33,275 bases of DNA from an uncultured Bacteroidales bacterium (GTDB lineage: Bacteria; Bacteroidota; Bacteroidia; Bacteroidales; Bacteroidaceae). Both the position numbers and the translations under genes were made by a program. Every line of letters starts with the position of its first letter. Positions within the stretch are counted from its first letter, which is position 1. The stretch lies in NCBI GenBank assembly GCA_902763865.1, contig CACWTR010000041.1:1-33275 (forward strand). The letters are read 5' to 3'. Below, one piece after another: positions 7,218 to 25,985 of this stretch. The notes below the pieces were generated by a model, which worked only from the letters and a program-made list of their open reading frames with translations, ran no database searches and had not been told where the DNA came from.

Positions 7218-7285
7218 CCAGTACCACCACATGAAAACTCCAGTACCACCGCGGTGGTACTGGAGTTTTCATGTGGTGGTACTGG
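7218..7285. repeat. Perfect 68-bp palindrome (CCAGTACCACC family)
   Basis: Two 34-bp arms (7218-7251, 7252-7285) are exact reverse complements with no loop. Each arm contains two GTACCACC words separated by ATGAAAACTCCA. It starts 15 nt after the rny stop and could form a cruciform or a very long RNA hairpin, possibly a processing or termination signal. A related sequence with the same CAGTACCACC ends lies in frame inside a gene at 18015-18080. Confidence 0.95.
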
Positions 7286-7298
7286 AGATAACAAACGA

Positions 7299-7451
7299 TT
7301 AACTTCCGGAAGTTAAATCAATGATTATCCCGGGGCACATTATTTAACGTAAGCTCGATGAGAGCTAAAGGACAAATAATTTCGATAATTAATGGGATAT
7401 TAATGGCAATTACATGTTTTATCTTTAACATATAATTGCCATGTAATTGCC
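7299..7451. repeat. Two further inverted repeats in the rny downstream region
   Basis: An 18-bp perfect palindrome (TTAACTTCCGGAAGTTAA, 7299-7316) is followed by a 12-bp inverted repeat (GGCAATTACATG at 7405-7416, CATGTAATTGCC at 7440-7451) in AT-rich DNA. No gene is supported between 7204 and 7665. The first could be a protein-binding site; neither has a clear T-tract for termination. Confidence 0.75.
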
Positions 7452-7486
7452 TTTAATTATTTTCGTCGAATTCATGTTATTTATAA

Positions 7487-7634
7487 TGATTATCCTGGGT
7501 CTTACCACCATTCATTAGTTTCGGAACAGCCCTGAAAGGGCAGTAAGCCCATAGCCCAGGGCATCGCCCTGGGTGGTCTATGTGACATAAGGCACGCCCT
7601 GTCAGGGTGCTGGTGGTACGACCCAGGATAATCA
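7487..7634. mobile_element. MITE-like element with nested hairpins
   Basis: A 15-bp terminal inverted repeat (7487-7501 with 7620-7634) continues inwards, after one mismatch, for 8 more bp (7503-7510 with 7611-7618). The interior holds short hairpins: GCCCTGAAAGGGC, CCCAGGGCATCGCCCTGGG and CCCTGTCAGGG. This nested structure is typical of non-autonomous miniature elements or REP-like repeats. No obvious target-site duplication is seen. A 60-codon reading frame across it is not credible as a gene. Confidence 0.7.
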
Positions 7635-7665
7635 CGTTATTTATTATTACTGTCCACAATAGTAT

Positions 7666-10600
7666 TTACTCCTGCTGTCGGGGTTTCTTCTGGAACTTAT
7701 AGACGACGTGCAGGAGGCCGTAGCGCGGCAGGACGCCCGTGTAGGTTTCTGTCCGCCCTTGCGCATTGATGGTGCGCGTCACGTTGGATAGCTGGCCGAG
7801 GATGTCGAAGCCGTCGAGCATGACAACCCACTTGCCCTTGAAGAGGGCGCGGCTCAGGCGGGCGTTCCAGACCACGTCGGCTGTGTTGAGGCTCGCATCG
7901 TTGTAGCCCGTGCGCCCGTAGAGCGTGAGGTCGGTGGTGAGGTCGAACTGCCAGGGCAGATGGACGATGGCATTTGCGCCGATACGATACTGCCAGGCGT
8001 TGATGCTTTGGAACGTCGCACGGTCGCTCGTGTAGCGGTTCCAGGCGATGTCCGACGAGAAGCCCAGGGTGTGCTTGCCCAGCGCAAGACTCACCTTGGG
8101 CGAGAAGGAAAGGGTGGAACTCTTTACCAAACTTCTGTTGCTGGTAATCTCTTGCTCCTTGCCTCCTGCCCCTTGTTCCTCACTCATCAAATCGACACTG
8201 TTCCTGTAGCTGAACTGCGTGACCATGCTGGCGCTGTGTTTCTTGCCGTCGCCAAAGCTGTAGTTGATGGTGTGCTTGGCCGAGGCGTCCCAGTTGCCAT
8301 TGACGTTGGTGGGAATGAACGTGCGGCGACCAGTCGTGCGGTCGTATATCTGGCCCACGCCAATCGCGTCGTGAGTGAAGCCGTAGCTAAGGTCGATGCG
8401 GTTGTGCATGCGCTTCCCAAGCGAATACAGATTGCCGTCGAGGACCGCGTCGGTGCGGATGGCGTAGCGAAGGTCGGGGTTGCCGATGCGGATGTTCATG
8501 GGGTCGGTGTCATCGACGATGCCTGCCTCGTTCAGAAGTTCAGGCGCCTCGCTCCTCACCCGCACTTCCAGTCCGGCATGATGCCCTTCCCTGGTCCTGA
8601 GCCACGGCTTCGTCTTGAACTCAAACGTCGGGCTAAAGCGGTGGAGAACCGTGTCGATGGCGCCTCGCTCGTAGGCGTGTCGTTGCGCATCCAGCGTGGC
8701 ATTAATCCTGAAATCAAGGTAGAACTGACCCCATTCCTTCTGCCCCAAGCCGTATTTGAAGTCGGCCCAAAGGTCGCTCGTGTTGTCGATGTAGTGCGCC
8801 AAATGACTGTTCGCGCGGTCGAAGACCTGCCGGTATTCGTTCACGCTCGGCAGCAAATCGATTGCCTTAGAGAAGGAAAGCCTCTCCCCCATCCCCTCTC
8901 CCGAGAGAGAGGGGAGTTGGTCCAGGCGATAGATGCTCTCCTGCTCGCGCCGATTGCTGTGGCTAAAGCTATAGCCAAGCAGCAATTGGCGATAATGTTC
9001 GCCAAGGGAGAATGTATATTGGACGAAGGGATTGAGTTCGAACTTGCTGCGAGGAGGTGTGTCGATGTATTGGTGGCGAAAGAAGGAAGGCTCGCTCGAG
9101 CCGTTGGCACGCATTTCCTGACGCGAGAACTCCTGCCTTTTGTTCTCCTTGTAGCTGGCGTTTATGCCGAAGTTCAGGAAGTCGCCCGTGCCCTTTATCT
9201 TCTTTGTCTCGAACAGGCCGGCGTTTGCCTCGATGTCGTGCCCCGTGCCTTTGCTCTCGCGGAGCTGTCGGTTGATGAGCGTGTCGCGCAGGTTCGGACG
9301 GGGAGATGTCGGGGAGAAGAGGTCGTCGAGCAGTTGGTGGCTGACCTCGACGGGCGCAGAGAAGAGGGCCGACGTGGTGCCGGAGGCGTTCCGGAAGTAG
9401 CGGTAGCGGGCATCTGCCGTTGCCTGTGTCCGCAGTTGCTTGCCTTTATAGATGAAGCGGTGCCACGTCGAGACGTCCCACTCTTCGTTCTTCATGTTGC
9501 CGAATCCGTAGTCGTAGGTGTCGCCGTCGGGCAGGAAGGTCTGCGTCGTGGTGCGCGTATCCTGCCATTCCTTCGCATGATGCGCCTCGACATATACAAA
9601 GTAATCGCGCTTCTTGTCATCCGACATCAGGTTGGCATCCACGCGGGCCATCTCGTTGCGACTCAGCTTGCCCGACCTGTCGGGCTGCCATCCGTCGCCC
9701 CAGACCATGTCGCCCGAGCCTTCGTCGTTCAGGTTGTTGGCCTTGGCATAGAAGCGTATGTTCGAGCGCTCGTCGTTCCGCATGGCGAAGAGGCGTGCCA
9801 GGTAGGGCGTCTCGTCCTGCCGCAGGCCCACTCCGGCCTCGACGTTTGCCATCCAGCCGACCATGTACTCGCGCTTCAGCCGCACGTCGATGACGTGGTG
9901 CTGCGTGCTCTCGTCGGTCCGCCCGAGCCATTCGTTCTCTTCTGTCTGCTTGTCATAAACGGCCACATCCTTCACGGTGTAGGCCGGAAGGTTCTCGAGC
10001 ATCAGCTTCCGACTGCCTTTGAAAAGGTCCTTGCCGTTCAGCAAGAGGTCGTCCACGAACTTGCCATTATGGTAGATGCGCCCGTCGCTCTTGAGCTCGA
10101 CGCCCGGCAACTGACGGAGCAGGGCGTCGAGCATTGACCCTTCGGCCAGTTGGAATTGGCTGGCATCATATACGACGGTGTCGCCCCGGAAGTAGAAGCG
10201 GACGCGCGATGCCTTGACGGTCACTTCCTGCAGGGTCTTCGAGAGCTTATGCAGATAGAAGGGCGCGACGTTGCGCGACGTTTCCCGTCGGCCCACACGG
10301 TCCACCTCATAGCTAAAGCAGGTCGTCCGATAGTCGTCCATCGAAATGCGGAAGATGTAGTGACGGGGCAGGGCGGGCACCTCGATGCTGTATCGCGGCA
10401 TGTCGTAATCTACTTGCCGTCCGCTCCCGTCGTAGTAGAAGGCTCTTTGCCGGGCACGCACCGAGTCGATGAGCGTGCTGTCCTCGCTGAGGAGTTCCAC
10501 CTTCGCGTCCATCAGATACTGGCGCGTCCGGGCATCGCAGACCACGCCGGAGAGCTTGATGGTGCGTGGCTTGTAGCTGCGGTCGTACTGGATGAAGATG

Positions 10601-10863
10601 TCCTTCCCCTTTATCTTCATCTTGACGGGCTGTCCCTGACAGAGGCGCTTCACGGCTTCCGTCATGGAGAGCCCCGTGAGGTCGGCATGGACGGGCAGCT
10701 CCTCAAGGTCGTTGGCAATGAAGTTGATGGTGTAGTCCGACTTGACTTCCCTGAGAGCGGCGAGAGCCGTGGCGAGCGATTCGCCGCGGAAATGGAGGTC
10801 GCGTGCCGAGAGGCCGAGCTGGACGCCTATATATATAATAATGTATAAGACCGTGCGTTTCAT
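7666..10863 (-). CDS. STN-domain outer-membrane beta-barrel protein (TonB-dependent-receptor-like)
   Basis: The 1065-residue protein has a signal peptide (about 1-20), then a secretin/TonB short N-terminal (STN) signalling domain (about 22-92). A carboxypeptidase-regulatory-like beta domain (about 96-200) follows, then a plug-like region (LPGVELKSDGRIYHNGKFV) and a long C-terminal outer-membrane barrel ending in VVYKFQKK. An STN receptor encoded right after a sigma and an anti-sigma gene is the layout of cell-surface signalling systems, where ligand binding outside releases the sigma factor inside. There is no SusD-like partner. Its start codon overlaps the anti-sigma stop by 4 nt. Two in-frame low-complexity inserts are visible: EEQGAGGKEQE (about 8150-8183) and LPSLSGEGMGERL (about 8881-8925), the latter encoded by a CCCCTCTC/GAGAGGGG hairpin. 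The ligand is unknown. Confidence 0.88.
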   Translation of the reverse strand: MKRTVLYIIIYIGVQLGLSARDLHFRGESLATALAALREVKSDYTINFIANDLEELPVHADLTGLSMTEAVKRLCQGQPVKMKIKGKDIFIQYDRSYKPRTIKLSGVVCDARTRQYLMDAKVELLSEDSTLIDSVRARQRAFYYDGSGRQVDYDMPRYSIEVPALPRHYIFRISMDDYRTTCFSYEVDRVGRRETSRNVAPFYLHKLSKTLQEVTVKASRVRFYFRGDTVVYDASQFQLAEGSMLDALLRQLPGVELKSDGRIYHNGKFVDDLLLNGKDLFKGSRKLMLENLPAYTVKDVAVYDKQTEENEWLGRTDESTQHHVIDVRLKREYMVGWMANVEAGVGLRQDETPYLARLFAMRNDERSNIRFYAKANNLNDEGSGDMVWGDGWQPDRSGKLSRNEMARVDANLMSDDKKRDYFVYVEAHHAKEWQDTRTTTQTFLPDGDTYDYGFGNMKNEEWDVSTWHRFIYKGKQLRTQATADARYRYFRNASGTTSALFSAPVEVSHQLLDDLFSPTSPRPNLRDTLINRQLRESKGTGHDIEANAGLFETKKIKGTGDFLNFGINASYKENKRQEFSRQEMRANGSSEPSFFRHQYIDTPPRSKFELNPFVQYTFSLGEHYRQLLLGYSFSHSNRREQESIYRLDQLPSLSGEGMGERLSFSKAIDLLPSVNEYRQVFDRANSHLAHYIDNTSDLWADFKYGLGQKEWGQFYLDFRINATLDAQRHAYERGAIDTVLHRFSPTFEFKTKPWLRTREGHHAGLEVRVRSEAPELLNEAGIVDDTDPMNIRIGNPDLRYAIRTDAVLDGNLYSLGKRMHNRIDLSYGFTHDAIGVGQIYDRTTGRRTFIPTNVNGNWDASAKHTINYSFGDGKKHSASMVTQFSYRNSVDLMSEEQGAGGKEQEITSNRSLVKSSTLSFSPKVSLALGKHTLGFSSDIAWNRYTSDRATFQSINAWQYRIGANAIVHLPWQFDLTTDLTLYGRTGYNDASLNTADVVWNARLSRALFKGKWVVMLDGFDILGQLSNVTRTINAQGRTETYTGVLPRYGLLHVVYKFQKKPRQQE
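8150..8183. repeat. In-frame GAGCAAGG-type repeat within the outer-membrane protein gene
   Basis: On the minus strand this stretch consists of GGAGCAAG/GGCAGGAGGC-like words and encodes EEQGAGGKEQE. A very similar stretch lies in frame at 13724-13756 in an unrelated gene (EEQGARDMEQGAPNE). It lies between probable barrel strands, where an exposed loop could tolerate it. Confidence 0.65.
8881..8918. repeat. In-frame palindromic repeat within the outer-membrane protein gene
   Basis: CCCCTCTC (8893-8900) and GAGAGGGG (8907-8914) form an 8-bp stem with a 6-nt loop, preceded by CCTCTCCCCCAT. The sequence resembles one half of the large aroE element at 21588-21675. It is read in frame as LPSLSGEGMGERL, out of character with the surrounding barrel sequence. 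Confidence 0.7.
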
Positions 10864-11504
10864 TTCCTGTCCTCCTTCCTTTCGTCTGACTCGACATAGA
10901 GCATGTAGAATTCCTGCGTGACGTTGATACCGTCGAACATGTTCAGCGTCTCGACAAACTCTCTGAGCGACTGCGAGGTGCGGCAGGTGACGAAAAGGCG
11001 CAGATGCTTGGGGGCTTCGTCCTTGAAGACGACCTGGCGGTCATAGTGCCTGCTGACGACGGCAAGGATGCTGTCCAGGCGGATGTTCTCGAAGCGGAAG
11101 ATGGTGTCGCCGTCCTGCACGTCGCAATAGAAGCGTTCCCTGACGGTCTCCGTCGTGTCGGCCTGCACAGGGGCCTGCGGCGCTTTGTGCCAACCGGAGA
11201 AGGCACGGTAACCGGCCAGCGACAGCACGCCGAAGCTGGCTACGGCAATGACGATGGCGGCTATGCGGCGTAGGGAAGTCCCTCCCCTACCCTTCCTTAA
11301 TGAGAGGAAGTCTCCGCCAAAGTACTCTCCTTTTAAGGGGGAGTCAGAGAAGGTCTTGGAGTCAGAGAGTGTCTTCTGCCACGCTGCTTCGATGTCGGGT
11401 TCCTTGTCGAGCTCCGTCATCATGGCTTCAAGCTGCTCGTCGGAGTATAGCTCGGGGTGTTCCTGCATGTCAAGGAACAGCTGCTTGTCGTCTAAGGGCT
11501 TCAT
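10860..11504 (-). CDS. Membrane anti-sigma factor, FecR-like C-terminus (DUF4974-like)
   Basis: This 214-residue single-pass membrane protein is the expected anti-sigma factor for the ECF sigma encoded just upstream. Residues 1-45 form an acidic cytoplasmic segment, 79-98 a membrane segment (IAAIVIAVASFGVLSLAGYR), and about 130-200 a periplasmic domain (ENIRLDSILAVVSRHYDRQV and following) that resembles the FecR C-terminal DUF4974. It is shorter than a standard FecR because the central domain is missing. Residues about 46-78 (DSPLKGEYFGGDF...LRKGRGGTSL) are encoded by a palindrome-like repeat, so the linker next to the membrane is largely repeat-derived. It overlaps the sigma gene and the receptor gene by 4 nt each (ATGA), indicating translational coupling and a fixed stoichiometry. 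Confidence 0.82.
   Translation of the reverse strand: MKPLDDKQLFLDMQEHPELYSDEQLEAMMTELDKEPDIEAAWQKTLSDSKTFSDSPLKGEYFGGDFLSLRKGRGGTSLRRIAAIVIAVASFGVLSLAGYRAFSGWHKAPQAPVQADTTETVRERFYCDVQDGDTIFRFENIRLDSILAVVSRHYDRQVVFKDEAPKHLRLFVTCRTSQSLREFVETLNMFDGINVTQEFYMLYVESDERKEDRK
11276..11356. repeat. In-frame repeat within the anti-sigma gene
   Basis: The plus strand contains CCTCCCCTACCC and then CTCTCCTTTTAAGGGGGAG, related to the CTCCCTTAAAGGGGGACTT arm of the aroE element at 21351-21418. Read on the minus strand it encodes SPLKGEY and GRGGTSL, matching the SPLKGD string encoded in aroE. It directly precedes the transmembrane segment. Confidence 0.75.
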
Positions 11505-11980
11505 AGGCTTTTCTGGTTAAAGTGTTGCTTGACGGACGCGATGATGCCCGACAGGTGCTTCCAGACGGCAACGCGGCTGATGCCCTCCTTGGCGGCAATC
11601 TCCTCGTAGCTGTAGCCCTCCGTGAAGCGAAGGGCAAAGATGCGCCGGTCTTGTTCCGAGAGATGGCTGACCACGAACTCCACGATGTCCGCCATCCTTT
11701 CGTCCTCCTCTGAGGCACTCTCCCAAAGGGGGAGCAGGGAGGGGGCTTTTTCAACGGCTTTGTGTCTGAGCCGCTTCAGGCAACGGTTGCGGACACTCGT
11801 CATGAGGTAGCGTTCCTCCGTTCCCGGCACGAGAATCGTCTCGCCACGAAGCAGGCTTTCGAAGATGTCCTGACAGACATCCTCGCTCTCCTGCACATCG
11901 TAGAGCAGGGTGCGCGCCACCCGATGCATCCGTGCATAGTGCTGCATGAACAGCTGCCTCACAACCTCTCGTTCCATCAC
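11501..11980 (-). CDS. ECF-type RNA polymerase sigma factor
   Basis: The 159-residue protein has sigma region 2 (about 8-72, including DVQESEDVCQDIFESLL) and region 4 (about 105-155, with YSYEEIAAKEGISRVAVWKH as the helix-turn-helix). It lacks regions 1 and 3, as in extracytoplasmic-function sigmas. It is first in a three-gene operon with its membrane anti-sigma and an STN receptor, so it probably activates its own operon and other targets when the receptor is occupied. The linker between regions 2 and 4 (about 79-91, APSLLPLWESAS) is encoded by a CTCCCAAAGGGGGAG palindromic repeat, an insertion at a tolerant place. The start is the first Met of MMEREVV; the second Met is equally possible. 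A clear promoter lies about 60 nt upstream. Confidence 0.93.
   Translation of the reverse strand: MMEREVVRQLFMQHYARMHRVARTLLYDVQESEDVCQDIFESLLRGETILVPGTEERYLMTSVRNRCLKRLRHKAVEKAPSLLPLWESASEEDERMADIVEFVVSHLSEQDRRIFALRFTEGYSYEEIAAKEGISRVAVWKHLSGIIASVKQHFNQKSL
11713..11745. repeat. In-frame repeat within the ECF sigma gene
   Basis: CTCTCCCAAAGGGGGAGCAG followed by GGAGGGGG is a short palindromic repeat of the same general type as those in aroE and the anti-sigma gene. It encodes the flexible linker between sigma regions 2 and 4. Confidence 0.65.
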
Positions 11981-12041
11981 GTCTTTTACCTATAATACCC
12001 CTCAAGGGCAGAAAAAGCTAACCCGAAATGCAAAATTTGTA

Positions 12042-12072
12042 CAAAGATACGACTTTTTCTGCAAAGCTCAAA
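12042..12072 (-). promoter_or_regulatory. Promoter of the sigma/anti-sigma/receptor operon
   Basis: On the minus strand TTTG (12069-12072) and TATCTTTG (12042-12049) are 19 nt apart, matching the housekeeping Bacteroidetes -33/-7 arrangement. Transcription would start near 12035, leaving a leader of about 55 nt. The operon is therefore not dependent only on its own sigma factor. Confidence 0.85.
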
Positions 12073-12077
12073 GAAAA

Positions 12078-12217
12078 GAGGATGTGTCAAAACAATGAAA
12101 AAGTTTCCAAACCACGAATTGCACGAATTGCACGAATTTATAATTAGCTGACAAACAGCAGTTGAATAATTCGTGTAGCAAAAAAGGGGGCTGTGCCATT
12201 CATTCTGACACATCCTC
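12078..12217 (-). terminator. recA downstream repeat (copy B) with probable terminator
   Basis: Bases 12141-12212 repeat the window-start element without its 22 extra bases. On the minus strand the hairpin is imperfect (two mismatches across nine positions, arms 12206-12217 and 12188-12196) but is still followed by six T residues (12180-12185). In addition GAGGATGTGTCA (12078-12089) is exactly complementary to TGACACATCCTC (12206-12217), so the whole 140-nt unit can close on itself. It lies just after recA and before the sigma-operon promoter. Confidence 0.75.
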
Positions 12218-12242
12218 GTGATTCTGCTTCCTGTGGCGGAGG

Positions 12243-13274
12243 CTATGCCTTCGCAGCATTCATGGCTTCGTATATCTTGGCCGTAATCTCGTCCTGAAGC
12301 TCGGGGTTGTCGCGCAGGACGTTCTTCGTGGCCTCCTTGCCCTGGCCCAGCTTGCTGCCGTTGTAGCTATACCAGGAGCCGCTCTTCTCGAGGATGCCGA
12401 AATCAACACCCAAGTCAACGACCTCACCGACGCGGCAGATGCCTTCGCCGTACATGATCTCGAACTCGGCACGACGGAAGGGAGGCGCCACCTTGTTCTT
12501 CACCACCTTCACCTTGACCTCGTTGCCGATGACGTTGTCGCCATCCTTGATGCTCTGGGACTTGCGGATGTCGATGCGGACAGAAGCGTAGAACTTCAGG
12601 GCATTGCCGCCCGTGGTGGTCTCGGGGTTGCCGAACATGATGCCTATCTTCTCGCGCAGCTGGTTGATGAAGATGCAGGTGGTGTTCGTCTTGCTGATGG
12701 TGCCGGTGAGCTTGCGCAGGGCCTGGCTCATCAGTCGTGCCTGCAGTCCGACCTTGTTGTCGCCCATGTCGCCTTCCAGTTCAGCCTTGGGCGTCAGGGC
12801 AGCCACAGAGTCGATGACGATGAGGTCAACGGCAGCACTACGGATGAGCTGGTCGGCTATGTCCAGTGCCTGTTCGCCGTTGTCGGGCTGCGAGATGAGC
12901 AGTTCATCGACATTCACGCCAAGGTTCTGCGCATAGAAGCGGTCGAAGGCATGTTCGGCGTCGATGAAGGCAGCTATGCCGCCCTGCTTCTGGACCTCGG
13001 CGATGGCATGAATGGCAAGGGTTGTCTTGCCCGAGGACTCCGGTCCGAATATCTCGACGATGCGTCCCCTGGGATAGCCGCCTACGCCGAGCGCGTTGTC
13101 CAAGGCGATGGAACCCGTCGGGATGACCTTTATGTTGTCTATGTGCTCTTCGCCTAACCGCATGATAGAACCCTTTCCGTGGTCCTTCTCTATCTTCGCC
13201 ATCGCTGCCTGCAGCGCCTTCAGCTTCTCGCTCTGCTGCCCGGGGGCAGCCGTCTCTTCTAATTTCTTTGCCAT
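12243..13274 (-). CDS. recA: Recombinase RecA
   Basis: RecA forms ATP-dependent filaments on single-stranded DNA for homologous recombination and triggers LexA-type autocleavage. The 343-residue protein is full length with Walker A GPESSGKT (77-84), Walker B LIVID (151-155), the L1/L2 DNA-binding region (including [20 protein letters not shown]) and a C-terminal domain that ends EAMNAAKA, without a long acidic tail. There is no repeat insertion. It lies 54 nt downstream of the carboxynorspermidine dehydrogenase gene in the same direction. The gap holds direct repeats of AACGTAATAACG and no clear promoter, so co-transcription is likely. No LexA-type operator was recognised. Confidence 0.99.
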
Positions 13275-13328
13275 TGTTTTATTCTTTCGTTATTACGTTA
13301 TATCGTTATTACGTTCTTACAGGATTGA

Positions 13329-14603
<1,275 letters not shown>

Positions 14604-14631
14604 TGTTTTGCGTTGTTATTGTTAGCGAATG

Positions 14632-14679: not shown

Positions 14680-14703
14680 CTTTGTTTGAGCGATGTATTT
14701 TAG

Positions 14704-14790
14704 TAGTTAGAGGTGAGGGGTTAGAGGTGAGAGGATTGCTGTGGAAACATGTATTCTCTAACCTCTAACCCCTGACCTCTAATCCCTGAC
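14704..14790. repeat. Inverted GTTAGAGGTGAG repeats
   Basis: GGGGTTAGAGGT (14717-14728) is complementary to ACCTCTAACCCC (14761-14772), with additional copies on each side. The motif is a relative of the GATTAGA tandem repeat at 5240-5288. It separates the stop codon at 14794 from the terminator and encodes nothing. Confidence 0.8.
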
Positions 14791-14793
14791 TGT

Positions 14794-17379: not shown

Positions 17380-18213
17380 CTACCTGACGGTGATGTGGAA
17401 ACAGCCCTGTTTCACTTCGTATTTGACGTAGCAGCGGCCTTGCTCCCTGATGTCGTGCAGCACCTCGCTCAGCACCCACTTGAGTGTGTCGCTCCTGACA
17501 GGCTGGCGCTCGGGCCCTCCCGGAGGGGAGACGGTGGAGAAGCGGTTGTAGCAGATGTCGAAGGTGGTGCCGAAGAGATGGCAACTCTGCTCCGTGGCAT
17601 TGCCGTTGCGACGCTGCAGGCGGGCTACGTCGTCCTGCGTCCGGAGCACACTCGACACGATAATCCTGTGCAGGGGTATTCCCTTCACATACAGGCTGTC
17701 GAGATAGCTGCGGCTGATGTCGGAGAGCAGGTGGGCAGCCCGGGGCACGAGGTAAGGGATGCTGTGGGTCATGCCATCGTCCAAGTAGTAGAAGGGATTG
17801 GCTCCGATATAGACAAGCTCCTTCCGGCGCCGTTCTGCCTCCTGGCGGTTGCGCACAGGGCTGACACCCCATCGGCGGGCGGCCACTATCTGCACCTCCT
17901 GCACGTCGGGGAAACACTTGGCATACGACGGCACACTGCGGACGGGATGCCAGCTGACCCTTTCTCCGGGGTCAGCCGACAGCTCCTTCAGCTCCATACT
18001 GCCCGGTCCTTCCTCAGTACCACCGTGGGAGTACTGGAGTTTTCCCGCGGGAGTACTGGAGTTTCCCTGCGGTGGTACTGGCTCCACGACGCTTTCCTCC
18101 GTACTGTTCACCTCGCCGCCCGTCACCTCGGGAAAGGCGAGTCTCACCAAACCGAGCACTGCAACAATGCCTCCGCTAATGCCCAGAAATATGCTTTTCT
18201 TTAGTCTTCTCAT
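17380..18213 (-). CDS. DUF5715-like protein, M15-peptidase-like domain
   Basis: I chose the start MRRLKKSIF (277 residues). An upstream in-frame Met at 18288 would add a stretch encoded by AT-rich intergenic repeats and would lie before the promoter. Residues 7-27 are an uncleaved signal anchor. The C-terminal domain has VSSVLRTQDDVARL, then SCHLFGTTFD (210-219) and CFHITV (271-276). His212, Asp219 and His273 are placed like the zinc ligands of VanY/M15 D,D-carboxypeptidases (SxHxxGxxxD and a late His), so peptidoglycan peptide cleavage is a reasonable hypothesis. Residues about 45-68 (PVPPQGNSSTPAGKLQYSH...) are encoded by a GTACTGGAG palindromic repeat lying in the linker after the anchor. 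It precedes the GxGYxYP gene in an apparent operon. Confidence 0.8.
   Translation of the reverse strand: MRRLKKSIFLGISGGIVAVLGLVRLAFPEVTGGEVNSTEESVVEPVPPQGNSSTPAGKLQYSHGGTEEGPGSMELKELSADPGERVSWHPVRSVPSYAKCFPDVQEVQIVAARRWGVSPVRNRQEAERRRKELVYIGANPFYYLDDGMTHSIPYLVPRAAHLLSDISRSYLDSLYVKGIPLHRIIVSSVLRTQDDVARLQRRNGNATEQSCHLFGTTFDICYNRFSTVSPPGGPERQPVRSDTLKWVLSEVLHDIREQGRCYVKYEVKQGCFHITVR
18015..18080. repeat. In-frame palindromic repeat (CAGTACCACC family) within the DUF5715 gene
   Basis: CAGTACCACC (18015-18024) and GGTGGTACTG (18071-18080) form the ends. Between them are two direct copies of GAGTACTGGAGTTT. The ends and the internal TACTGGAGTTTTC word are shared with the perfect palindrome at 7218-7285. 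The DNA is translated as a Pro/Gly/Ser-rich linker. Confidence 0.85.
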
Positions 18214-18236: not shown

Positions 18237-18239
18237 CAA

Positions 18240-18339: not shown

Positions 18340-18356
18340 CATTAAAATAGCTACGA

Positions 18357-19343: not shown

Positions 19344-20293
19344 ATGCATTGACAAGAACCGACTTCCGCCTGCCAGGGCAGGTGAGTGTCTATCACGGCA
19401 AAGTCCGCGACGTCTATAACATCAACGATGACCTCATGGTCATGGTCGCCACAGACCGCATCTCGGCCTTCGACGTCATCCTGCCCAAAGGCATCCCCTT
19501 CAAGGGACAGGTGCTCAACCAGATTGCCGCATCGTTCCTCGATGCCACAGCCGACATCGTGCCCAACTGGAAGCTGGCTACGCCAGACCCGATGGTCACC
19601 GTGGGCCTCAAGGCAGAAGGCTTCCGCGTGGAGATGATCATCCGCGGCTACCTGACCGGCTCTGCATGGCGCGAGTACAAAGCCGGCTGCCGAGAACTCT
19701 GCGGCGTGAAGCTCCCCGAAGGCATGAAGGAGAACCAGAAGTTCCCCGAACCCATCATCACGCCGACCACCAAAGCCGAGGAAGGCCACGACGAGAACAT
19801 CTCCGCCGAGGAAATCATCCGTCAGGGACTCGTCAGCCGCGAGGACTGGGAGACGATGGTCAACTACACACGGGCTCTCTTCCAGCGCGGCACGGAGATT
19901 GCCGCCGCAAAGGGACTCATCCTGGTCGATACCAAGTATGAGTTCGGCAAGCGCGACGGCAAGGTCATCCTCATCGACGAGATACACACGCCCGACTCAA
20001 GCCGCTACTTCTACGCCGAGGGCTACGAGGAGAAGTTCGCAAAGGGAGAGCCGCAACGACAGCTCTCGAAGGAATTCGTGCGCCAATGGCTCATCGAACA
20101 CAACTTCATGAACCAGCCCGGACAAGTCATGCCCGAGATAACCGACGAGTACGCACAGAGCGTGGCCGACCGCTACATCGAGCTCTACGAACACATCGTG
20201 GGCCGGAAGTTCGTGCCTGCCGACAGCGAAGGCGACCTGGCCCGACGCATCGAAAAGAACGTGACGGAGTGGCTTACAAGCAGGAACAAATAA
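19340..20293 (+). CDS. purC: Phosphoribosylaminoimidazole-succinocarboxamide synthase (SAICAR synthetase)
   Basis: PurC ligates aspartate to CAIR using ATP in purine biosynthesis. The 317-residue product has the family motifs [11 protein letters not shown] (18-28), [13 protein letters not shown], and [10 protein letters not shown], and later [11 protein letters not shown] and [14 protein letters not shown]. It is the longer form (about 310 residues) found in Bacteroidetes and eukaryote-like PurC. I used ATG 19340, which overlaps the phoH stop; longer in-frame readings extend back inside phoH and are not credible. The 3' end overlaps the next gene by about 25 nt. Confidence 0.96.
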
Positions 20294-21003
20294 CGCCCTA
20301 CGACAAGGGAAGCAAGCAGGAGCAGGTACGGCGCATGTTCGACAAGATAGCTCCTACCTACGACAAGCTGAATCATACTCTGTCGCTCGGCATAGACCGT
20401 CGCTGGCGGCGCAAGGCCGTCGATGCCCTCGGCAAGCATCAGCCGCAGGACATACTCGACATCGCTACGGGCACGGGCGACTTCGCCATGCTCATGGCCC
20501 GGCGCATCCAGCCCAGGCACATCACGGGGGCCGACATCAGCGAAGGCATGATGGACGTGGGGCGCAAGAAAGTCAAGGAGGCCGGACTGCAGGACACCAT
20601 CTCCTTCCAGCGAGAGGACTGCCTCTCGCTCACCTTCCCCGACGGGACCTTCGATGCCGTCACGTCGGCCTACGGCGTGCGCAACTTCCAGGACCTCGAC
20701 CAGGGGCTTCGCGAGATGCAACGCGTCCTGCGCCCCGGCGGGCATCTGCTCATCGTGGAGCTCACTCCCCCGCCCCGCTTCCCCATGAAGCAACTGTTCT
20801 GGCTCTACGCACACGTCGTCATGCCGCTCATAGGTCGCCTCATCAGCCACGATGACAGCGCATACACCTACCTGCCTCGCACGATGGAAGCCTTCCCGCA
20901 GGCAGAAGAGATGGAAGGCATCCTGCACAAAGCCGGCTTCGCAGAAGTGGAGTGGCACCGCTTCACCTTCGGCATCAGCACGATGTACCTGGCGAAGAAA
21001 TAA
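20269..21003 (+). CDS. ubiE: Demethylmenaquinone methyltransferase (UbiE/MenG)
   Basis: This SAM-dependent enzyme methylates demethylmenaquinone to menaquinone, the last step of the quinone pathway used by Bacteroidetes. The 244-residue product starts at GTG 20269 ([15 protein letters not shown]...), inside the end of purC, which gives the usual length and an N-terminus like that of other Bacteroidetes MenG. Motifs are [19 protein letters not shown] (25-43), the SAM-binding [11 protein letters not shown] (63-73), and [11 protein letters not shown]. The upstream in-frame Met at 20086 would extend deep into purC and is rejected. It is part of the phoH-purC-ubiE-aroE operon. Confidence 0.93.
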
Positions 21004-21022
21004 AAGAAAGGAAAAGTGAATA

Positions 21023-21961
21023 GTGAAAAGTGAAAAATTTGCTGCCGCCCCGAGTTCTCCCGGCAAAGAGGCCGCGAGGAGGGCGCTATATGGACTCATA
21101 GGATTTCCTCTCGGGCACAGCTTCAGCAGAGGGTTCTTTACGGAGAAGTTCGCACGCGAAGGTATCGACGCCGAGTACCTTAACTTCGAGATACCCGATG
21201 CCTCGATGCTCCTTGATGTGATTCGCGAAAACCCCGGGCTGCGCGGCCTGAACGTCACGCTGCCCCACAAGCAGGCCGTCATCCCCCTGCTCGACGAACT
21301 GAGCGACGAGGCACGGGAGATTGGGGCCGTCAACGTCATCAAGATAGAAAGACCCTCTAAATCTCCCTTAAAGGGGGACTTCAAGTCCTCCCCCTTTAAC
21401 GGGGAGTTAGAGAGAGTCCGCCTCAAGGGTTTCAACAGCGACATCATCGGCTTCACGGAAAGCATCAAGCCGCTGCTCAGGCCTTGGCACAAGAAAGCCC
21501 TCGTGCTGGGCACCGGCGGCGCAAGCAAAGCCATCTGCGTGGGGCTGAAACGCCTCGGACTGGAATGGACCTACGTCAGCCGAAAAAGCCTCACCCCCGG
21601 CCCCTCTCCCGTGGGAGAGGGGAGTGGGCTGCTGGTTTCTCCCCTCTCCCACGGGAGAGGGGCCGGGGGTGAGGCTGGATCGGGGCTGAGGCTGTCTTAT
21701 TCCGACCTCACCGCCGACGTGATGCAGGAATACACCGTCATCGTCAACTGCACCCCCGTCGGCATGTTCCCCAAGGTGGATGCCGCGCCAGACATCCCCT
21801 ACGGGTTCCTCACCCCGCAGCATCTGCTCTTCGACTGCGTCTATAATCCCGAGGACACACTCTTCCTGAAAAAAGGACGCGAACAGGGGGCAGTGGGCAA
21901 GAACGGCCTGGAGATGCTGCACCTGCAAGCCCTCGCAAGCTGGCATTTCTGGAACGATTAA
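21023..21961 (+). CDS. aroE: Shikimate dehydrogenase with two repeat-encoded insertions
   Basis: AroE reduces 3-dehydroshikimate to shikimate with NADPH in aromatic amino-acid synthesis. The 312-residue product is longer than the usual ~250-270. Conserved elements are GFPLGHSFS (27-35), the catalytic-lysine motif NVTLPHK (77-83), NSD (138-140), the NADP loop GTGGASKA (163-170) and NCTPVGMFP (242-250), so the enzyme looks functional. Three segments are foreign. Residues 1-21 start at a GTG inside an intergenic GTGAAAAGTGAAAA repeat and replace the normal N-terminus. Residues about 110-133 (PSKSPLKGDF...) and about 189-222 (SLTPGPSPVGEG...) are encoded by large palindromes. Both inserts are in frame and lie between secondary-structure blocks. 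It begins 19 nt after ubiE and ends the operon. Confidence 0.93.
   Translation: MKSEKFAAAPSSPGKEAARRALYGLIGFPLGHSFSRGFFTEKFAREGIDAEYLNFEIPDASMLLDVIRENPGLRGLNVTLPHKQAVIPLLDELSDEAREIGAVNVIKIERPSKSPLKGDFKSSPFNGELERVRLKGFNSDIIGFTESIKPLLRPWHKKALVLGTGGASKAICVGLKRLGLEWTYVSRKSLTPGPSPVGEGSGLLVSPLSHGRGAGGEAGSGLRLSYSDLTADVMQEYTVIVNCTPVGMFPKVDAAPDIPYGFLTPQHLLFDCVYNPEDTLFLKKGREQGAVGKNGLEMLHLQALASWHFWND
21351..21418. repeat. Palindromic repeat 1 within aroE
   Basis: GACCCTCTAAATCTCCCTT pairs imperfectly with the end of the element (GGGGAGTTAGAGAGAGTC), and the centre holds AAAGGGGGACTT and AAGTCCTCCCCCTTT. The 68-bp element is read in frame as SPLKGDFKSSPFNGELERV between the native INVIKIE-type strand and LKGFNSD. 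Relatives are in the anti-sigma gene (11276-11356). Confidence 0.9.
21588..21675. repeat. Palindromic repeat 2 within aroE, perfect 35-bp arms
   Basis: Arms 21588-21622 and 21641-21675 are exact reverse complements, separated by 18 bp. Each arm also contains an internal hairpin (CCCCTCTCCC GT GGGAGAGGGG). The 88-bp element is translated as about 29-33 Gly/Pro/Ser-rich residues after the NADP-binding strand. The perfect arms suggest recent insertion or continuing arm correction. Confidence 0.95.
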
Positions 21962-21981
21962 AAGAAAATTTCCTTCTTCGC

Positions 21982-22012
21982 TTGCTTTTATCTGCAAAAA
22001 AAAATATATTTG
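21982..22012 (+). promoter_or_regulatory. Promoter of the LamG/GLUG protein gene
   Basis: TTG (21982-21984) and TATATTTG (22005-22012) are 20 nt apart, a good Bacteroidetes promoter. The start near 22019 leaves an AT-rich leader of about 65 nt before the ATG at 22086. Confidence 0.8.
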
Positions 22013-22085
22013 CGGAGCAAACCTTAAAAAACAACTATATACTTTTCCTATCAACACTTTTTATTAACCTAAAAAAGTTGTACCT

Positions 22086-25000
22086 ATGAAAAAACAGTTA
22101 CTGACAATGCTCCTGCTTGTCCTGGCAGGAAGCGCGACTGCTACGGCTCAGACACCCGAGCCGTCCGGGCAGTGGAAGTTCGAGAACCCAAGCGACCTTA
22201 TGGCAGCCACGACGGGGAATGTGACACTGACCCCAGCCGTAATCGGCGCGTCCAGCATTGCCGCCTCAACCGTTGAAGAGGCCGGCATAACCGTGGCCGA
22301 GGGTCCCGCCGGAGGCAGCGCCATCTTTGTGCCTGCCGCTTCAGCCTTGAAGGTGGAACGCGCCGAGGGTGCAGCGGCCTCCACCTCCTTCTCCTTCATG
22401 ATCGACCTGAAGGTGCCTGATGCCTACGTCTATGACGGTCTGTTCCAGACGAGTCCGGGCAACAGCAACGACGGCGAAATCTTCATCAGCAAGAGCCAGA
22501 TTGGTGCAGGTGCGCTGGGCGGCTACGCGGGCTGCATCTGGAACGACATGTGGTACCGCGTCATCCTGACCAACAGCAACGGCTCCGTCAAGCTCTACGT
22601 GAACGGCGTGAAGTTCATCGACTACGAGACCACAAACACGCGCTGGGAGATTGACCCCGTCTTCTACCTGCTCTGCGACGAGGACGGCGAGAAGTCGGAC
22701 ACCTACGTCTCCGAGGTGGCATTCTGGGAGACTCCCCTCACCGACGAGGAAGTAAGTGCGCTGGGCAGCATCGACCAGACGCCCTGGATTACCGACGTAA
22801 GTCAGATAAAGGAGGGCGACCAGTTCTACATCATCAGCGACCGTGCCAAGTTCAACGGCAACACGACTGCCAAGCCCAAGGCCATGGCCTGCATCCAGGA
22901 GAACTTCCCGACCAATTGGGGCGAACAGTATGTCTATTGGGGCAACCTCGACAAGGAGAGCGACGGCTTCATCTGGACAGCAGAGAAGGTCGGCGACCAG
23001 TGGGCATTCCTCAACAAGGAAAACGGCAAGTATCTGGGCAACATGAACACCGGTGAGGCCGACGTCATCTTCTCCGAAACGCCGGTAGGCTACACGCTCA
23101 CCGACCTCACGGAAGGTGCAGGCCGCTTCTACATGACCAACGACGAGTCGGAGTACTCGCTCCACGTGCAGGGCTACCTTCGCGGCGACCGCCAGAACAA
23201 CAGCCTTGCCAAGCAGGAAGTGGGCAACGACGAATACGAGGCTGCCAATGCCGCACTCAACGGCTATCCCGGTCGCTGGAGACTGATGAAGCTCAATGCC
23301 GACGAGCCCCTCGACCCGCGGACACAAATCGGTACGGCTGAAGACTTCGCTGCCTTTGCTCAGGCTGTCAGCGAAGGCCAGACCGACATCGATGCCGTCC
23401 TGACTGCTGACATCGAACTCACAGGCAACGTGATGGTAGGCACCAGCACCAACCAGTATGCCGGCACATTCGACGGACAAGGCCACAAGGTGACATACAA
23501 CTACAGCATCGAAAGCAACTACTCCGGACTGTTTGCCTTCGCGAACAATGCCACCATTCGCAATCTCTTCGTGGAAGGCAGCGCAGTCTCGACAGCCATC
23601 CACTTCGGTGCACTCATCGGCCAGGCTAACGGCACAGTGCTCGTGGAGAATGTCGTAACGAATGTTGACATCACAGGCAACCGCTCCGGTGTGACGGGCA
23701 ACAGCGGCATGCTGGGTGCAAACTATGCCAACATCACCTTCAACAACTGTGCCGTACTCGGTCCGATGGGCAATCCCGGTAGCTCTATGTACAGCCCCTT
23801 CTCCGGCTGGTCAAATGGCAACAGCAGTGTAACACTCAACAATTGCTATGCAGCCTGTGAGTTCAAGGCCGGCACAGTAATTGACGGCAACAGCGCCACC
23901 CTCTCGCATGGCGGCACGAGTGCCAACTACTTCAACAACTGCTACTACCTCAACTACATTGACAAGAACCAGGGCACACAGGTAACCGCAGAACAGATTG
24001 CAAGCGGCGAACTCTGCTACAAGCTCAACGGCGACCAAAGCTCTATTGGCTGGTATCAGAATCTCGACGGCACAGACAGCTATCCTGTTCCCTTCGCTAC
24101 CCATAAGCAAGTATATGCCACCGGCCAGCTCCGCTGCGACGGCGAGGAACTGCCCGACAGCCCCATTGCCTACAGCAACACCGAGGGCCAGACCACGATA
24201 CCGGCCCACAAGTATGGCGCCGACGGCTCCTGCACCGTCTGCGGCAGCCCCAAGCAGAATGCCGACGGCTTCTACTTCGTCAGCAATGCTGCACAGCTGA
24301 ACTGGTTCGCCCAGAAGGTTGCAGCCGGACGGAAGGACATCGACGTGCTCCTGACAGCTGACATCGACCTGAGCCAGAGCGACTGTCCAGACCTCATGAT
24401 CGGCACCGAGAACGCCGAGTATGCCGGCATCTTCGACGGCCAGGGACATACCATTACCTATAACTATGTACTCGTCGAGAGCAAGTGGCGCGGACTGTTT
24501 GCCTTCGTCAACAACGCCGTTATCCGCAACCTGAGGGTTGAAGGCAGCGCCATCGTGACGAACATCCACTACGGAGCCCTCATCGGACGCGCATACGGCA
24601 CCGTGCTCGTCGAGAACGTCATCACCGACGTCGATATCACCGGACAGCGCAGCGGCGTGACGGGCGACGGCGGCATGCTGGGTGCCAACTACGCAAACAT
24701 CACCTTCACGAACTGTGCCACTCTGGGCAAGATGGGCTACGAAGGCAGCTCTATGTACAGCAGCTTCTCGGCATGGTCCAACGGCTCGTCTTCCACAACG
24801 CTGAACAACTGCTTCACGCTGTGCGAGCTGACCGCAGGCACCAGCACCGGCAACTGCTTCACGCTGACACACAGAAGCGGCAAGGTTACCATCAACAACT
24901 GCTACTATCTGAACGAAATCGGCGTGGTTCAGGGCACAGCCGTCACCGCAGAAGAGGTTGCTAACGGTACGCTCACGGCTCGTCTGGGCAACGGCTGGTA

Positions 25001-25985
25001 CCAGAACATCGGCGAGGATGACTGCCCCGTCCTGGACCAGAAACACAACGTCGTGAAGGAAATCGGCGAGGCAGGCTACGCCACGATGTACGTGCCGAAG
25101 GCCGTGGAAGCCCCCGAGGGCGTGACGGCCAACACCGGTTCCTTCAAGGAAGAGGGAGGCGCAACATACCTCAACCTCAATCCCATAGAAGGCATCATCC
25201 CCGCCTGGGAGCCCGTCGTGCTGAAGGGCGAACCTGGCATCTACGAGTTCCTGCCTGCCGTTCCGACCGAAGAGAAGAGCGTCAACATCGCCTTTGCCAA
25301 CCGGGGCTTGGAGAACGCAGCCGACCTCAGCTCCTTCGAGCAGGAAGGTCTGAGCTTCAGCTTCGACGCAGGCACCAACAGCACCCCGCCCCGTTACTAC
25401 GAAAACGGCAATGCCGGACGCTTCTACGGCAGCAACAGCCTCACCATCTCCGCCGCAGGACCCATCACGAAGATTATATTCGAATTCGCCGGCAACAACT
25501 ATGCCCTCAAGAGCGGCAGCTTTGAGTTCAGCGACGGCGAGTACAGCCTCTCCACCAAGACATGGACGGGTGCTGCCGAGACCCTGACCCTCACCAACAC
25601 CAGCACCAGCCAGTTCCGCATCGTCAGCATGACCGTCACCTACGCCGCCTACCCCGCTGGCATCGAGGGCAACGTGCTGCTGGGTGCCGACGAAGACATC
25701 GAGGCAGCAGGCAAGTACATCCTGGCTAAGCCCGAAGAGGGACCGGTAGGCTTCTACCTGGCCGGAAGCGGCACCATCAAGGCCGGCAAGGCATACCTCG
25801 AGCTGCCCGAAGCATCCGGAGTGAAAGCCTTCCTCTTCGGCGGTGACAACGCAACCTCGATAGGTGAAGAGCTCAGAACGAAGAACGAAGAATCCTCCGC
25901 AGGCATCTTCAACCTGTCCGGCCAGCGCATCCAGAAGATGCAGCGCGGCATCAACATCGTGAGCGGAAAGAAAATACTCTTTTGA
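22086..25985 (+). CDS. Large secreted LamG/GLUG-repeat surface protein
   Basis: The 1299-residue protein has a signal peptide (cleavage after about residue 21, TATA|QTPE), a LamG/concanavalin-type domain (about 28-235) and a middle domain (about 240-400) with a WAFLNKENGKYLG motif. Two copies of a GLUG-type beta-repeat module follow (about 415-668 and 724-978), each with DGQGH, GLFAF, IRNL.VEGSA and GALIG. They are joined by HKYGADGSCTVCG (about 707-719). A GYATMYVPKAVEAPEGV domain comes next, and the C-terminus (GIFNLSGQRIQKMQRGINI...) resembles Prevotella C-terminal sorting-type domains. It is probably cell-surface or secreted and may bind glycans; no catalytic motif is recognised. An in-frame LRTKNEESS near the end is encoded by a GAACGAAGAACGAAGAA repeat. 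A 50-residue ORF and a terminator follow. Confidence 0.87.
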   Translation: MKKQLLTMLLLVLAGSATATAQTPEPSGQWKFENPSDLMAATTGNVTLTPAVIGASSIAASTVEEAGITVAEGPAGGSAIFVPAASALKVERAEGAAASTSFSFMIDLKVPDAYVYDGLFQTSPGNSNDGEIFISKSQIGAGALGGYAGCIWNDMWYRVILTNSNGSVKLYVNGVKFIDYETTNTRWEIDPVFYLLCDEDGEKSDTYVSEVAFWETPLTDEEVSALGSIDQTPWITDVSQIKEGDQFYIISDRAKFNGNTTAKPKAMACIQENFPTNWGEQYVYWGNLDKESDGFIWTAEKVGDQWAFLNKENGKYLGNMNTGEADVIFSETPVGYTLTDLTEGAGRFYMTNDESEYSLHVQGYLRGDRQNNSLAKQEVGNDEYEAANAALNGYPGRWRLMKLNADEPLDPRTQIGTAEDFAAFAQAVSEGQTDIDAVLTADIELTGNVMVGTSTNQYAGTFDGQGHKVTYNYSIESNYSGLFAFANNATIRNLFVEGSAVSTAIHFGALIGQANGTVLVENVVTNVDITGNRSGVTGNSGMLGANYANITFNNCAVLGPMGNPGSSMYSPFSGWSNGNSSVTLNNCYAACEFKAGTVIDGNSATLSHGGTSANYFNNCYYLNYIDKNQGTQVTAEQIASGELCYKLNGDQSSIGWYQNLDGTDSYPVPFATHKQVYATGQLRCDGEELPDSPIAYSNTEGQTTIPAHKYGADGSCTVCGSPKQNADGFYFVSNAAQLNWFAQKVAAGRKDIDVLLTADIDLSQSDCPDLMIGTENAEYAGIFDGQGHTITYNYVLVESKWRGLFAFVNNAVIRNLRVEGSAIVTNIHYGALIGRAYGTVLVENVITDVDITGQRSGVTGDGGMLGANYANITFTNCATLGKMGYEGSSMYSSFSAWSNGSSSTTLNNCFTLCELTAGTSTGNCFTLTHRSGKVTINNCYYLNEIGVVQGTAVTAEEVANGTLTARLGNGWYQNIGEDDCPVLDQKHNVVKEIGEAGYATMYVPKAVEAPEGVTANTGSFKEEGGATYLNLNPIEGIIPAWEPVVLKGEPGIYEFLPAVPTEEKSVNIAFANRGLENAADLSSFEQEGLSFSFDAGTNSTPPRYYENGNAGRFYGSNSLTISAAGPITKIIFEFAGNNYALKSGSFEFSDGEYSLSTKTWTGAAETLTLTNTSTSQFRIVSMTVTYAAYPAGIEGNVLLGADEDIEAAGKYILAKPEEGPVGFYLAGSGTIKAGKAYLELPEASGVKAFLFGGDNATSIGEELRTKNEESSAGIFNLSGQRIQKMQRGINIVSGKKILF
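25868..25894 (+). repeat. Short in-frame AACGAAGAA repeat in the GLUG protein gene
   Basis: GCTCAGAACGAAGAACGAAGAA contains two copies of AACGAAGA and encodes LRTKNEES between the gene's main body and its C-terminal SGQR domain, as a linker. The stretch is similar in kind to other translated intergenic repeats in this window. Confidence 0.55.

Follow-up and report, generated by a model that had tools for sequence, protein, structure and literature searches.

The question raised by contig CACWTR010000041.1 of an uncultured Bacteroidales bacterium (assembly GCA_902763865.1) is whether the repeat-like stretches inside its ordinary genes belong to the encoded proteins or are DNA elements that have spread through the genome and are read in frame where they landed. 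The window, meaning the whole stretch of 33,275 nucleotides that was analysed, is contig C41 of the draft genome G000 (2.91 Mb, 75 contigs, 84% complete); genomes are denoted by G-numbers and the loci that were read by L-numbers. An earlier inspection of the letters (the sequence-only reading) had placed such stretches in seven genes, for an outer-membrane receptor, an anti-sigma factor, a sigma factor, carboxynorspermidine dehydrogenase (CANSDH), a DUF5715 protein, AroE and a GLUG protein, and had ascribed them to dispersal of DNA and not to protein homology. Our analysis very probably answers the question in the same sense: several families of hairpin-forming elements appear to have spread as DNA, and to persist in genes where they can be read as soluble loops. 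What was directly observed is that the repeats are dispersed and take hairpin form, that inverted arms flank a constant tip, that the same loops were hit repeatedly and that the reading is biased. Five of the seven genes (receptor, anti-sigma, CANSDH, DUF5715 and aroE) were found to contain repeats, the sigma gene was a weak case and the GLUG gene was unsupported. Additionally, 7218–7285, the start of the span that had been described as lying within genes, proved to be intergenic.

Each repeat word was searched across the whole of G000, with the same pattern reversed as the control. Family A, an array of palindromic 22-bp units, gave 31 matches against 0 in the control. Families B and C, both inverted pairs of short palindromes, gave 44 matches (22 palindromes) against 0 and 27 matches against 1, respectively, and the heptanucleotide family D gave 140 against 2. 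Family E, an AACGAAG run, gave 3 matches against 4 and so showed no dispersal above its control. From these counts families A to D were taken as dispersed and E was rejected as a dispersed repeat; the expected recurrence of each unit elsewhere in the genome thus held for A to D and failed for E, and the GLUG gene was left with an 18-nt run. Of 72,556 records, 4 had distant matches to family B; these lie on Pseudanabaena, Cupriavidus and Sulfitobacter plasmids, and the B motif is therefore not confined to this clade.

An unbiased sample of G000, comprising the window and 20 stretches of 20 kb (433,275 bases), contained 47 arrays of period 7, 34 of period 22 and 31 of period 21, where one Markov shuffle of the sample contained 0 at each of these periods. 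The period-7 arrays fell into 21 heptamer families in this sample and 62 in the relatives, which were matched via the window CANSDH protein and are mostly rumen and gut metagenome-assembled genomes filed as Prevotellaceae, Bacteroidaceae or Prevotella. An inverted partner within 120 bp was present for 31 of the 106 arrays in the relatives' loci, compared to 1 in the reversed and 3 in the complement control. In our own sample a strict partner search found inverted partners for 6 of 46 arrays, equal to the reversed control (6 of 46), and the evidence for inverted pairs therefore comes from the loci of the relatives and from the core elements described below.

Family D was found to consist of inverted heptanucleotide arrays around a 28-nt core, GAGAATAC-N12-CAATCCTC. 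A search with the pattern GAGRATAC-N(8-16)-CAATCCTC located the core in 6 of 61 genomes of the genus (G042 with 10 matches, G000 with 7, G075 with 4, G049 with 3, and G057 and G019 with 1 each), and the control gave 0. The G019 hit (L325) was a core match without arms (period-7 identity 0.24 and 0.29) and was dropped, leaving 25 counted cores with period-7 arms in five genomes; L327 (0.52, 0.57) and L328, with one short right arm (0.33), were kept despite their weak arms. The arms were mostly GAGCAAG-like, and four copies (three in G075 and one in G000) had GGTTAGA/GGTGAGA arms; the window holds one copy armed in this way, between genes (core 14731–14758). As copies with either type of arm had the same tip, the core is constant and the arms vary. 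Outside the genus, a further 197 genomes of the order were drawn, and five of them had one or two matches (six in total, against 1 in the control). Period-7 arms were absent from all six (period-7 identity 0.10–0.43), for which reason these matches were taken as chance.

The window proteins were compared with their orthologues in 80 loci. As far as these alignments indicate, the inserts are mostly absent from orthologues, and a different repeat often occupies the same loop in a related species. Apart from close sisters the compared orthologues did not have the same residues, which agreed with the proposal of insertion, as did the close relatives that lacked a segment or had another repeat at its site. 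The C and B segments of aroE were both missing from L004, L005, L006, L010, L017 and L020; the sister locus L001 had B nearly letter for letter and a different arrangement of C, and L002 had part of C. An N-terminal extension of about 20 residues was present, among eight sequences, only in the window and L001, and the aroE start apparently lies inside an AAAGTGA heptamer run (21007–21036). The string REQGA in aroE, which the sequence-only reading had not named, was considered as a further repeat and rejected as native, because L002 has REQGA and L004 RKQGA at this point. In CANSDH, one loop had 14 extra residues (42 nt) in the window, 29 in L001, 15 in L050, 7 in each of L040 and L078 and 5 in L053 among the 81 aligned sequences, and a second site had 10 in L080 and 9 in L050. 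Alignment with the solved structure 8deb showed window residues 279–304 (26 residues) facing 2 residues, with the local alignment breaking off on both sides; the insert falls between residues 275 and 278 of 8deb. At the same codon the sister L001 carried a complete element with GGTTAGA arms and core. RecA, used as the neighbour-gene comparison, had no inserts in 74 sequences.

At the family D site of the receptor, L004 and L005 had a different, ACAACAG-type repeat that is read DNGQQTTDNGQ. The C site of the anti-sigma gene was occupied by a shorter version in L004 and L005 and by unrelated sequence in L020. The window sigma gene has only a short palindrome, and all three aligned relatives carried repeats at the site: L001 and L004 a TGTTCAA/TTGACCA heptamer pair with 22 extra residues, and L005 a CCTCCCCCGAGGGGGAGG palindrome of the CCTCCC type. 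The DUF5715 linker with the family A array was shorter by 22 residues (66 nt) in L001 and of similar length and unrelated sequence in L002 and L003, so that a clean insertion is shown against L001 only.

The clearest case of insertion lies outside the window, in the alanyl-tRNA synthetase (AlaRS) gene of G000, which carries family D. Among 24 aligned sequences (25 genomes matched; a G032 fragment was left out), 21 had no insert at this site, and G000, G019 and G035 carried three heptamer pairs there (GAGCAAG, AATGGTC, GTTGAAA). Inserts in AlaRS, TsaD or HisRS had predicted peptides of the type EQENT...NPLAPCPLPLAP. Family C was present at one site in both GMP synthase genes of G000; of 21 aligned sequences, 17 had no insert there and two had 7 extra residues. 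These two genes (G000:C44:35374-36996 and G000:C57:5500-7119) are 89% identical and their C inserts, at the same site, differ in length. In TsaD the D copies of G000 and G049 (proteins 90% identical) shared their position and differed in the middle of the core, and D elements were shared by two genomes each in HisRS (L324 and L339, 93% identical) and YbeY (L348 and L179, 77% identical). Identified by Pfam, the hosts in G000 were TsaD, AlaRS, the two GMP synthases, a poly(A) polymerase-like protein, XseA, YbeY, two HATPase (histidine-kinase-like) proteins, UvrD, LicD, a family 2 glycosidase, an M24 peptidase and an aldehyde dehydrogenase. Those in G042, G049, G057 and G075 were HisRS, LeuRS, TsaD, QueG, PLD, GH43, GH127 and YbeY; those in G019 were RmlD, a helicase and Omp85; and those in G035 were a class I I/L/M/V synthetase, an AIR-synthase-like protein, MatE and a hydroxyacid dehydrogenase. 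The G035 synthetase is presumably IleRS, judging by its motif.

The heptamer-element hosts in L168, L230–L232, L324, L334, L313, L151, L330, L179, L348 and L337 included Ala, His, Leu and Ile-like aminoacyl-tRNA synthetases, TsaD, YbeY and QueG. Such hosts may include more translation and tRNA genes than expected. In L345 (G042) the D copy and the 44 residues around it were 91% identical to the LeuRS copy of G049 (L334), and the rest was unlike LeuRS; this could mean that the element carried along a fragment of its host gene when it moved, or that the contig is misassembled.

Among the loci read in G000, open frames contained 13 of 15 for family B (15 of 22 palindromes read), 14 of 24 for C and 27 of 30 for D (30 of 140 matches read), the last corresponding to 17 of 19 distinct arrays. 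For family A (30 loci read) the gene caller put 0 of 16 arrays in genes; with the DUF5715 copy, which was counted as in a gene because orthologues start upstream of the array, 15 of 16 were intergenic. GAGCAAG-type arrays of the unbiased sample lay in genes ten times and between genes five times. The 25 D cores were divided between open frames (16) and intergenic DNA (9), with the same core in both settings, which bears out the view that the elements spread as DNA and not by protein homology. The coding share of the G000 sample was about 87%, and with random insertion, one in three in frame and no other loss, at most about 2 in-gene copies are expected per intergenic one. The ratio observed for D, 1.8 (small numbers, from several genomes), was near this upper limit, which would point to genes that tolerate insertion very well or to a degree of preference for them, although some in-gene calls may be read-through.

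For family B, the frames in which the copies are read also pointed to dispersal as DNA. Thirteen oriented in-gene copies of family B were read in at least four of six frames (F2 five times, F1 twice, R0 and R2 three times each) and never in the frame that holds TGA; a fifth frame was used in the partner half of one copy, and two more in-gene copies had no clear orientation. Of the in-gene D cores, 14 of 16 were on the sense strand and 12 of these in one frame, F0. Stops do not explain this bias (P ~2e-6, or 6e-6 with one orthologous pair counted once), because the other frames are nearly as open: of 25 cores F0 was stop-free in 23, F1 in 20, F2 in 21 and the reverse frames in 19–20. Frame use broadly followed hydrophilicity, with F0 the most hydrophilic of the six readings (mean hydropathy, with in-gene copies in brackets: F0 −1.03 (12), F1 −0.89 (2), R0 −0.41 (2), F2 −0.19 (0), R2 +0.46 (0) and R1 +0.53 (0)). 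This order suggests selection on the translated peptide and so gives indirect evidence of translation. In our own sample, all 19 of 19 arrays built from heptamers that bring a stop on either strand were intergenic.

Single-strand folding lay far below that of shuffles for the B pair of aroE, for the element at 14706 and for both A arrays of the window (z scores in Table 1), and gave z −4.4 for the C pair of aroE and −2.75 for the AlaRS insert; the CANSDH remnant forms no hairpin (z +1.0). An AlphaFold model of AroE, built from an alignment of eight sequences (mean predicted local distance difference test score (pLDDT) 71.8, predicted template modelling score 0.73), had a fold that matches solved shikimate dehydrogenases (2hk8, E 8e-22). 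Its runs with pLDDT below 50 were residues 1–21 (the extension after the heptamer run), 24–34 (native), 114–129 (C) and 191–219 (B). The model thus places both inserts in what are predicted to be unstructured, exposed parts, in line with the loops proposed from the sequence.

Taken together, these observations suggest the following course of events. Short hairpin-forming elements would spread as DNA, probably as single-stranded hairpins, both between genes and into genes, and insertion would be indifferent to gene borders. Judging from what remains, insertions that shift the frame, bring in stops or encode a hydrophobic peptide would be lost, and in-frame soluble stretches in exposed loops would persist and most likely be translated. 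The arms would change by slippage within the arrays. Related species have different repeats at the same place because the same permissive loops are hit repeatedly.

Several observations weigh against this account. The step in hydropathy between F0 and F1 is too small for 12 copies against 2, so something else must add to the bias, and at least four arrays of both-strand-stop heptamers were called inside genes in the relatives (45 of the 62 families were listed); where the units of an array are imperfect, the stop can be avoided. Both C copies of the window, mismatched to the C pattern (Table 1), lie outside the 27 G000 matches, the receptor B copy is likewise missing from the 44 B matches, and the receptor D copy is degenerate, with 2–3 mismatches to the D word. 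The CANSDH copy fits that word with 1 mismatch and belongs to D by its arms only, as the core is missing. Assignment of the degenerate window copies therefore goes by similarity and site comparison. At another site in GMP synthase, 9 of 21 sequences had 6–40 extra residues, few of which were repeats, and lengths therefore vary in the ordinary way as well. In L157, L161 and L127 the repeat-holding open frames joined two unrelated Pfam families (Na/H exchanger and subtilase; glycine transporter and T9SS plug protein; NanM and SSF symporter), perhaps by read-through or fusion at a gene border, and part of the in-gene count may accordingly be read-through. The gene calls came from a simple purpose-made caller, and every genome compared at this depth is a draft, in most cases metagenome-assembled, or a small sample of one. 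No target-site duplication was visible, the empty sites being too diverged to read one, and no mobilising gene was found beside family D. Finally, the G035 AlaRS array continues a native-looking word, GTTGAAAGT, and some heptamer runs may, like it, have grown by slippage from a local seed.

Taken further, this last point would make all of the repeats the product of local replication slippage and drift in low-complexity linkers, each heptamer run growing from a seed in its own gene without any dispersal. The dominance of period 7 with many unrelated heptamers (21 families in our own sample, 62 in the relatives), the G035 array, the lack of dispersal of family E and the equal numbers of inverted and reversed partners in our own sample (6 and 6 of 46) would fit such a process. 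It does not account for a 28-nt D core that recurs at unrelated loci with no control matches, for families A, B and C, which are not simple repeats, for the inverted partners in the relatives or for in-gene and intergenic copies of the same sequence, and we consider it quite unlikely as a general explanation; slippage alone may account for family E and heptamers seen at single loci. Dispersal by a known system, namely repetitive extragenic palindromic (REP) elements and their hairpin-forming pairs (REPINs) mobilised by a REP-associated tyrosine transposase (RAYT, Y1_Tnp), is also unlikely. The hairpins and inverted pairs are as in REPINs (PMC3116915), and a Y1_Tnp gene was present in G000, G049 and G057, three of the five genomes with D cores; in 12 other genomes of the genus, three had partial matches at E >1e-4 and nine had none. 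The three RAYT loci that were read (~3.3 kb each) contained no A, B, C or D, and no RAYT was found in G042, the richest genome (10 cores; 62% complete), G019 or G035, with G075 giving a weak partial match. Moreover, 16 of 25 D cores were in genes, compared to 14 of 1,067 REP 16-mers overlapping genes in P. fluorescens SBW25 (PMC3116915). RAYT as the general driver was thus unsupported, with no A–D at the three RAYT loci read and no RAYT found in core-rich G042.

Retention for a function, as RNA hairpins that regulate the mRNA or as useful protein linkers, would agree with the strong predicted hairpins of most elements, the constant core and the strand and frame bias of D, of which hydropathy explains only part. 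As most of the compared copies were lineage-specific, the hosts unrelated and insert-free orthologues the rule, we regard it as very unlikely. It is hardly credible that the inserts are skipped in translation or cut from the RNA, leaving proteins without them. Housekeeping enzymes among the hosts and long hairpins might suggest this; under such a process, stops and lengths that are no multiple of three would do no harm, whereas in-gene B copies avoided the stop-bearing frame and D copies favoured hydrophilic readings. An artefact of assembly, or contamination of a metagenome-assembled genome, is equally far-fetched. The compared genomes are drafts, and the D copy of L345 in G042 matched the G049 LeuRS copy over 44 residues only, with differing surroundings. 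On the other hand, the aroE B insert recurred almost letter for letter in the sister L001, D was present in two genomes each in HisRS and YbeY, and the contamination of G000 is given as 0.37%. Spread as DNA with persistence in readable loops remains the preferred explanation.

Two of the three RAYT-like Y1_Tnp loci (G000, G057) adjoined 22-bp arrays of differing sequence (G000:C4:17736-18074, read as L225 and L206; L356, 627–697). At the G000 Y1_Tnp gene, GCCCAGGGC and GCCCTGAAAGGGC words recurred on both sides and may be its own REP. G075 is probably the source genome of L001, with Y1_Tnp at the same place.

Cyanobacterial short tandem heptanucleotide repeats are known as STRRs; these and the TAACTGA and GGGAATC repeats are described mainly as intergenic direct repeats, whereas the heptamers here form inverted arms around a conserved core and are often in genes. 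To our knowledge, inverted heptamer arms around a constant core are not known from STRRs. Such short tandem repeats share with those of this genome a seven-base tandem unit present at many sites, and heptanucleotide repeats are reported to outnumber all other classes of longer simple repeat in most of the genomes surveyed (PMC4679880, PMC4692102).

Palindromic repeats read in frame in proteins have been described from Rickettsia, Wolbachia and Methanocaldococcus jannaschii, and ten families and 44 integrations in R. conorii genes are reported for the Rickettsia palindromic elements (RPE) (PMC10969869, PMC2996958, PMC3733652, the counts from PMC10969869). The likeness to RPE that had been proposed for this DNA was apt. 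As RPE are described in the same papers, both are palindromic repeats inserted in frame into genes that are unrelated to one another and often have housekeeping roles; both lie in segments without structure, and several families occur per genome (PMC10969869, PMC2996958, PMC3733652). In the genomes studied here there were in-frame copies absent from orthologues, DNA that forms hairpins and insertion sites predicted to be unstructured (AroE model; CANSDH against 8deb). The host here is a Prevotella-like member of the Bacteroidales, one family combines heptanucleotide arms with a constant core, and different families share one orthologue loop; the likeness to RPE is drawn from their description. 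Families B and D resemble REPs, REPINs and bacterial interspersed mosaic elements in being short palindromes (20–40 bp) in inverted pairs that form hairpins. REPs are mostly extragenic and RAYT-linked (PMC3116915), as family A is mostly extragenic (15 of 16), whereas B (13 of 15) and D (16 of 25) were mostly in open frames and none of A to D flanked a RAYT gene at the three loci. Intragenic copies of GTAG and CGTC REPs are reported from O. terrae and R. conorii (PMC3733652); no GTAG/CGTC tag was apparent by eye in the A–D consensus. With regard to miniature inverted-repeat transposable elements (MITEs), inverted ends were present, and the divergence of the empty sites prevented the reading of a target-site duplication. 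The BrickBuilt MITE of Porphyromonas gingivalis, a minisatellite with 19 copies, also has a Bacteroidales host, and its 23-bp units are much like the 22-bp units of family A; it is always intergenic with leader and tail ends, whereas one family A array lies in a gene, the comparison being by description only (PMC4596501).

Literature searches, including searches with the repeat strings as text, found nothing on these repeats in Prevotella or Bacteroidales. Protein-coding palindromic repeats are already known; what is new is the host group, the presence of several families at once and an element whose heptamer arms differ while its core stays constant. Tentatively, and with more doubt than confidence, family D may represent mobile hairpin elements of a new class, in which an unchanging 28-nt tip sits on a heptanucleotide stem whose heptamer (GAGCAAG, GGTTAGA, GGTGAGA) switches between copies and species; these elements would accumulate in genes in one strand and frame, and their decay products would feed the unexplained excess of heptanucleotide repeats in bacteria. 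The core-plus-heptamer architecture is a lead on these over-represented repeats. More broadly, selfish-looking DNA invades housekeeping genes, some of them essential, in frame in a gut and rumen lineage, and the close genomes offer many natural replicates of insertion against empty site. AlaRS, TsaD, GMP synthase, AroE and CANSDH are cases in which to gauge the effect of an unselected loop of 10–30 residues on an enzyme. For annotation, strings such as EQGARSK, SPLKGE and LTPGPSPVGEG in such proteins are no sign of homology.

Table 1. Repeat copies located in the window (positions in nucleotides of the 33,275-nt stretch)
Feature	Position	Strand	Remarks
Family A array, 22-bp units, perfect 34-bp inverted repeat	7218–7285	.	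Intergenic, directly after the rny stop codon; arms 100% complementary; folding z −14.1
Degenerate family D-like heptamers (GAGCAAG) in outer-membrane receptor	8134–8184	-	Read EEQGAGGKEQEITSN
Family B half-element in receptor	8875–8920	-	Read QLPSLSGEGMGERLS; 7 residues missing in L004, L005, L020
Family C pair in FecR-like anti-sigma gene	11274–11342	-	Read SPLKGEYFGGDFLSLRKGRGGTS; 3–4 mismatches to C pattern
Short CTCCC/GGGAG palindrome in sigma gene, linker between regions 2 and 4	11711–11743	-	Weak in window
Family D arm remnant in CANSDH, core gone	13701–13754	-	Read EEQGARDMEQGAPNEAPK; folding z +1.0
Intergenic core element with GGTTAGA/GGTGAGA arms	14706–14790	-	Core 14731–14758 GAGAATACATGTTTCCACAGCAATCCTC; folding z −8.9; matching copy in G075 (L329)
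Family A array in DUF5715 gene, linker between membrane segment and domain	18015–18084	-	66 nt = 22 codons; domain residues 128–302; folding z −4.5
AAAGTGA heptamer run at aroE start	21007–21036	+	Supplies apparent GTG start and N-terminal extension
Family C pair in aroE	21350–21415	+	Read RPSKSPLKGDFKSSPFNGELER; model residues 114–129 pLDDT <50; folding z −4.4; 3–4 mismatches to C pattern
Family B inverted pair in aroE	21580–21683	+	Read SLTPGPSPVGEG...PLSHGRGAGGEA; folding z −13.9; model residues 191–219 pLDDT <50
AACGAAG run (family E), 2.6 copies, in GLUG protein gene	25875–25892	+	18-nt run; no dispersed family here

The linker before a C-terminal motif that we take to be of the YDLSGR type was a recurrent landing place, holding B in L116 and L117, D in L167, another heptamer run in L305 and E in the window (25860–25985). 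Many unrelated families with 21–22-bp units were present in the G000 sample (L202–L221), for example at L206 17283–17454, L212 8837–8959, L218 6986–7085 and L210 5118–5184. Their units included the palindromic types TTGCTTCATCGCGATGAAGCAA, TTGCACATACATGTACGTGCAA and TGAAAATTAATTTTCACGTCA and arrays of the CTCACGAG type. Of the 34 period-22 arrays in the 433 kb, the simple caller placed 32 between genes and two at gene edges. Additionally, window positions 27–97 and 12113–12215 have in common a 39-bp sequence (97% identity), next to which are 9-bp arrays of CACGAATTG, and these 9-bp arrays recurred across the sample of the same genome.

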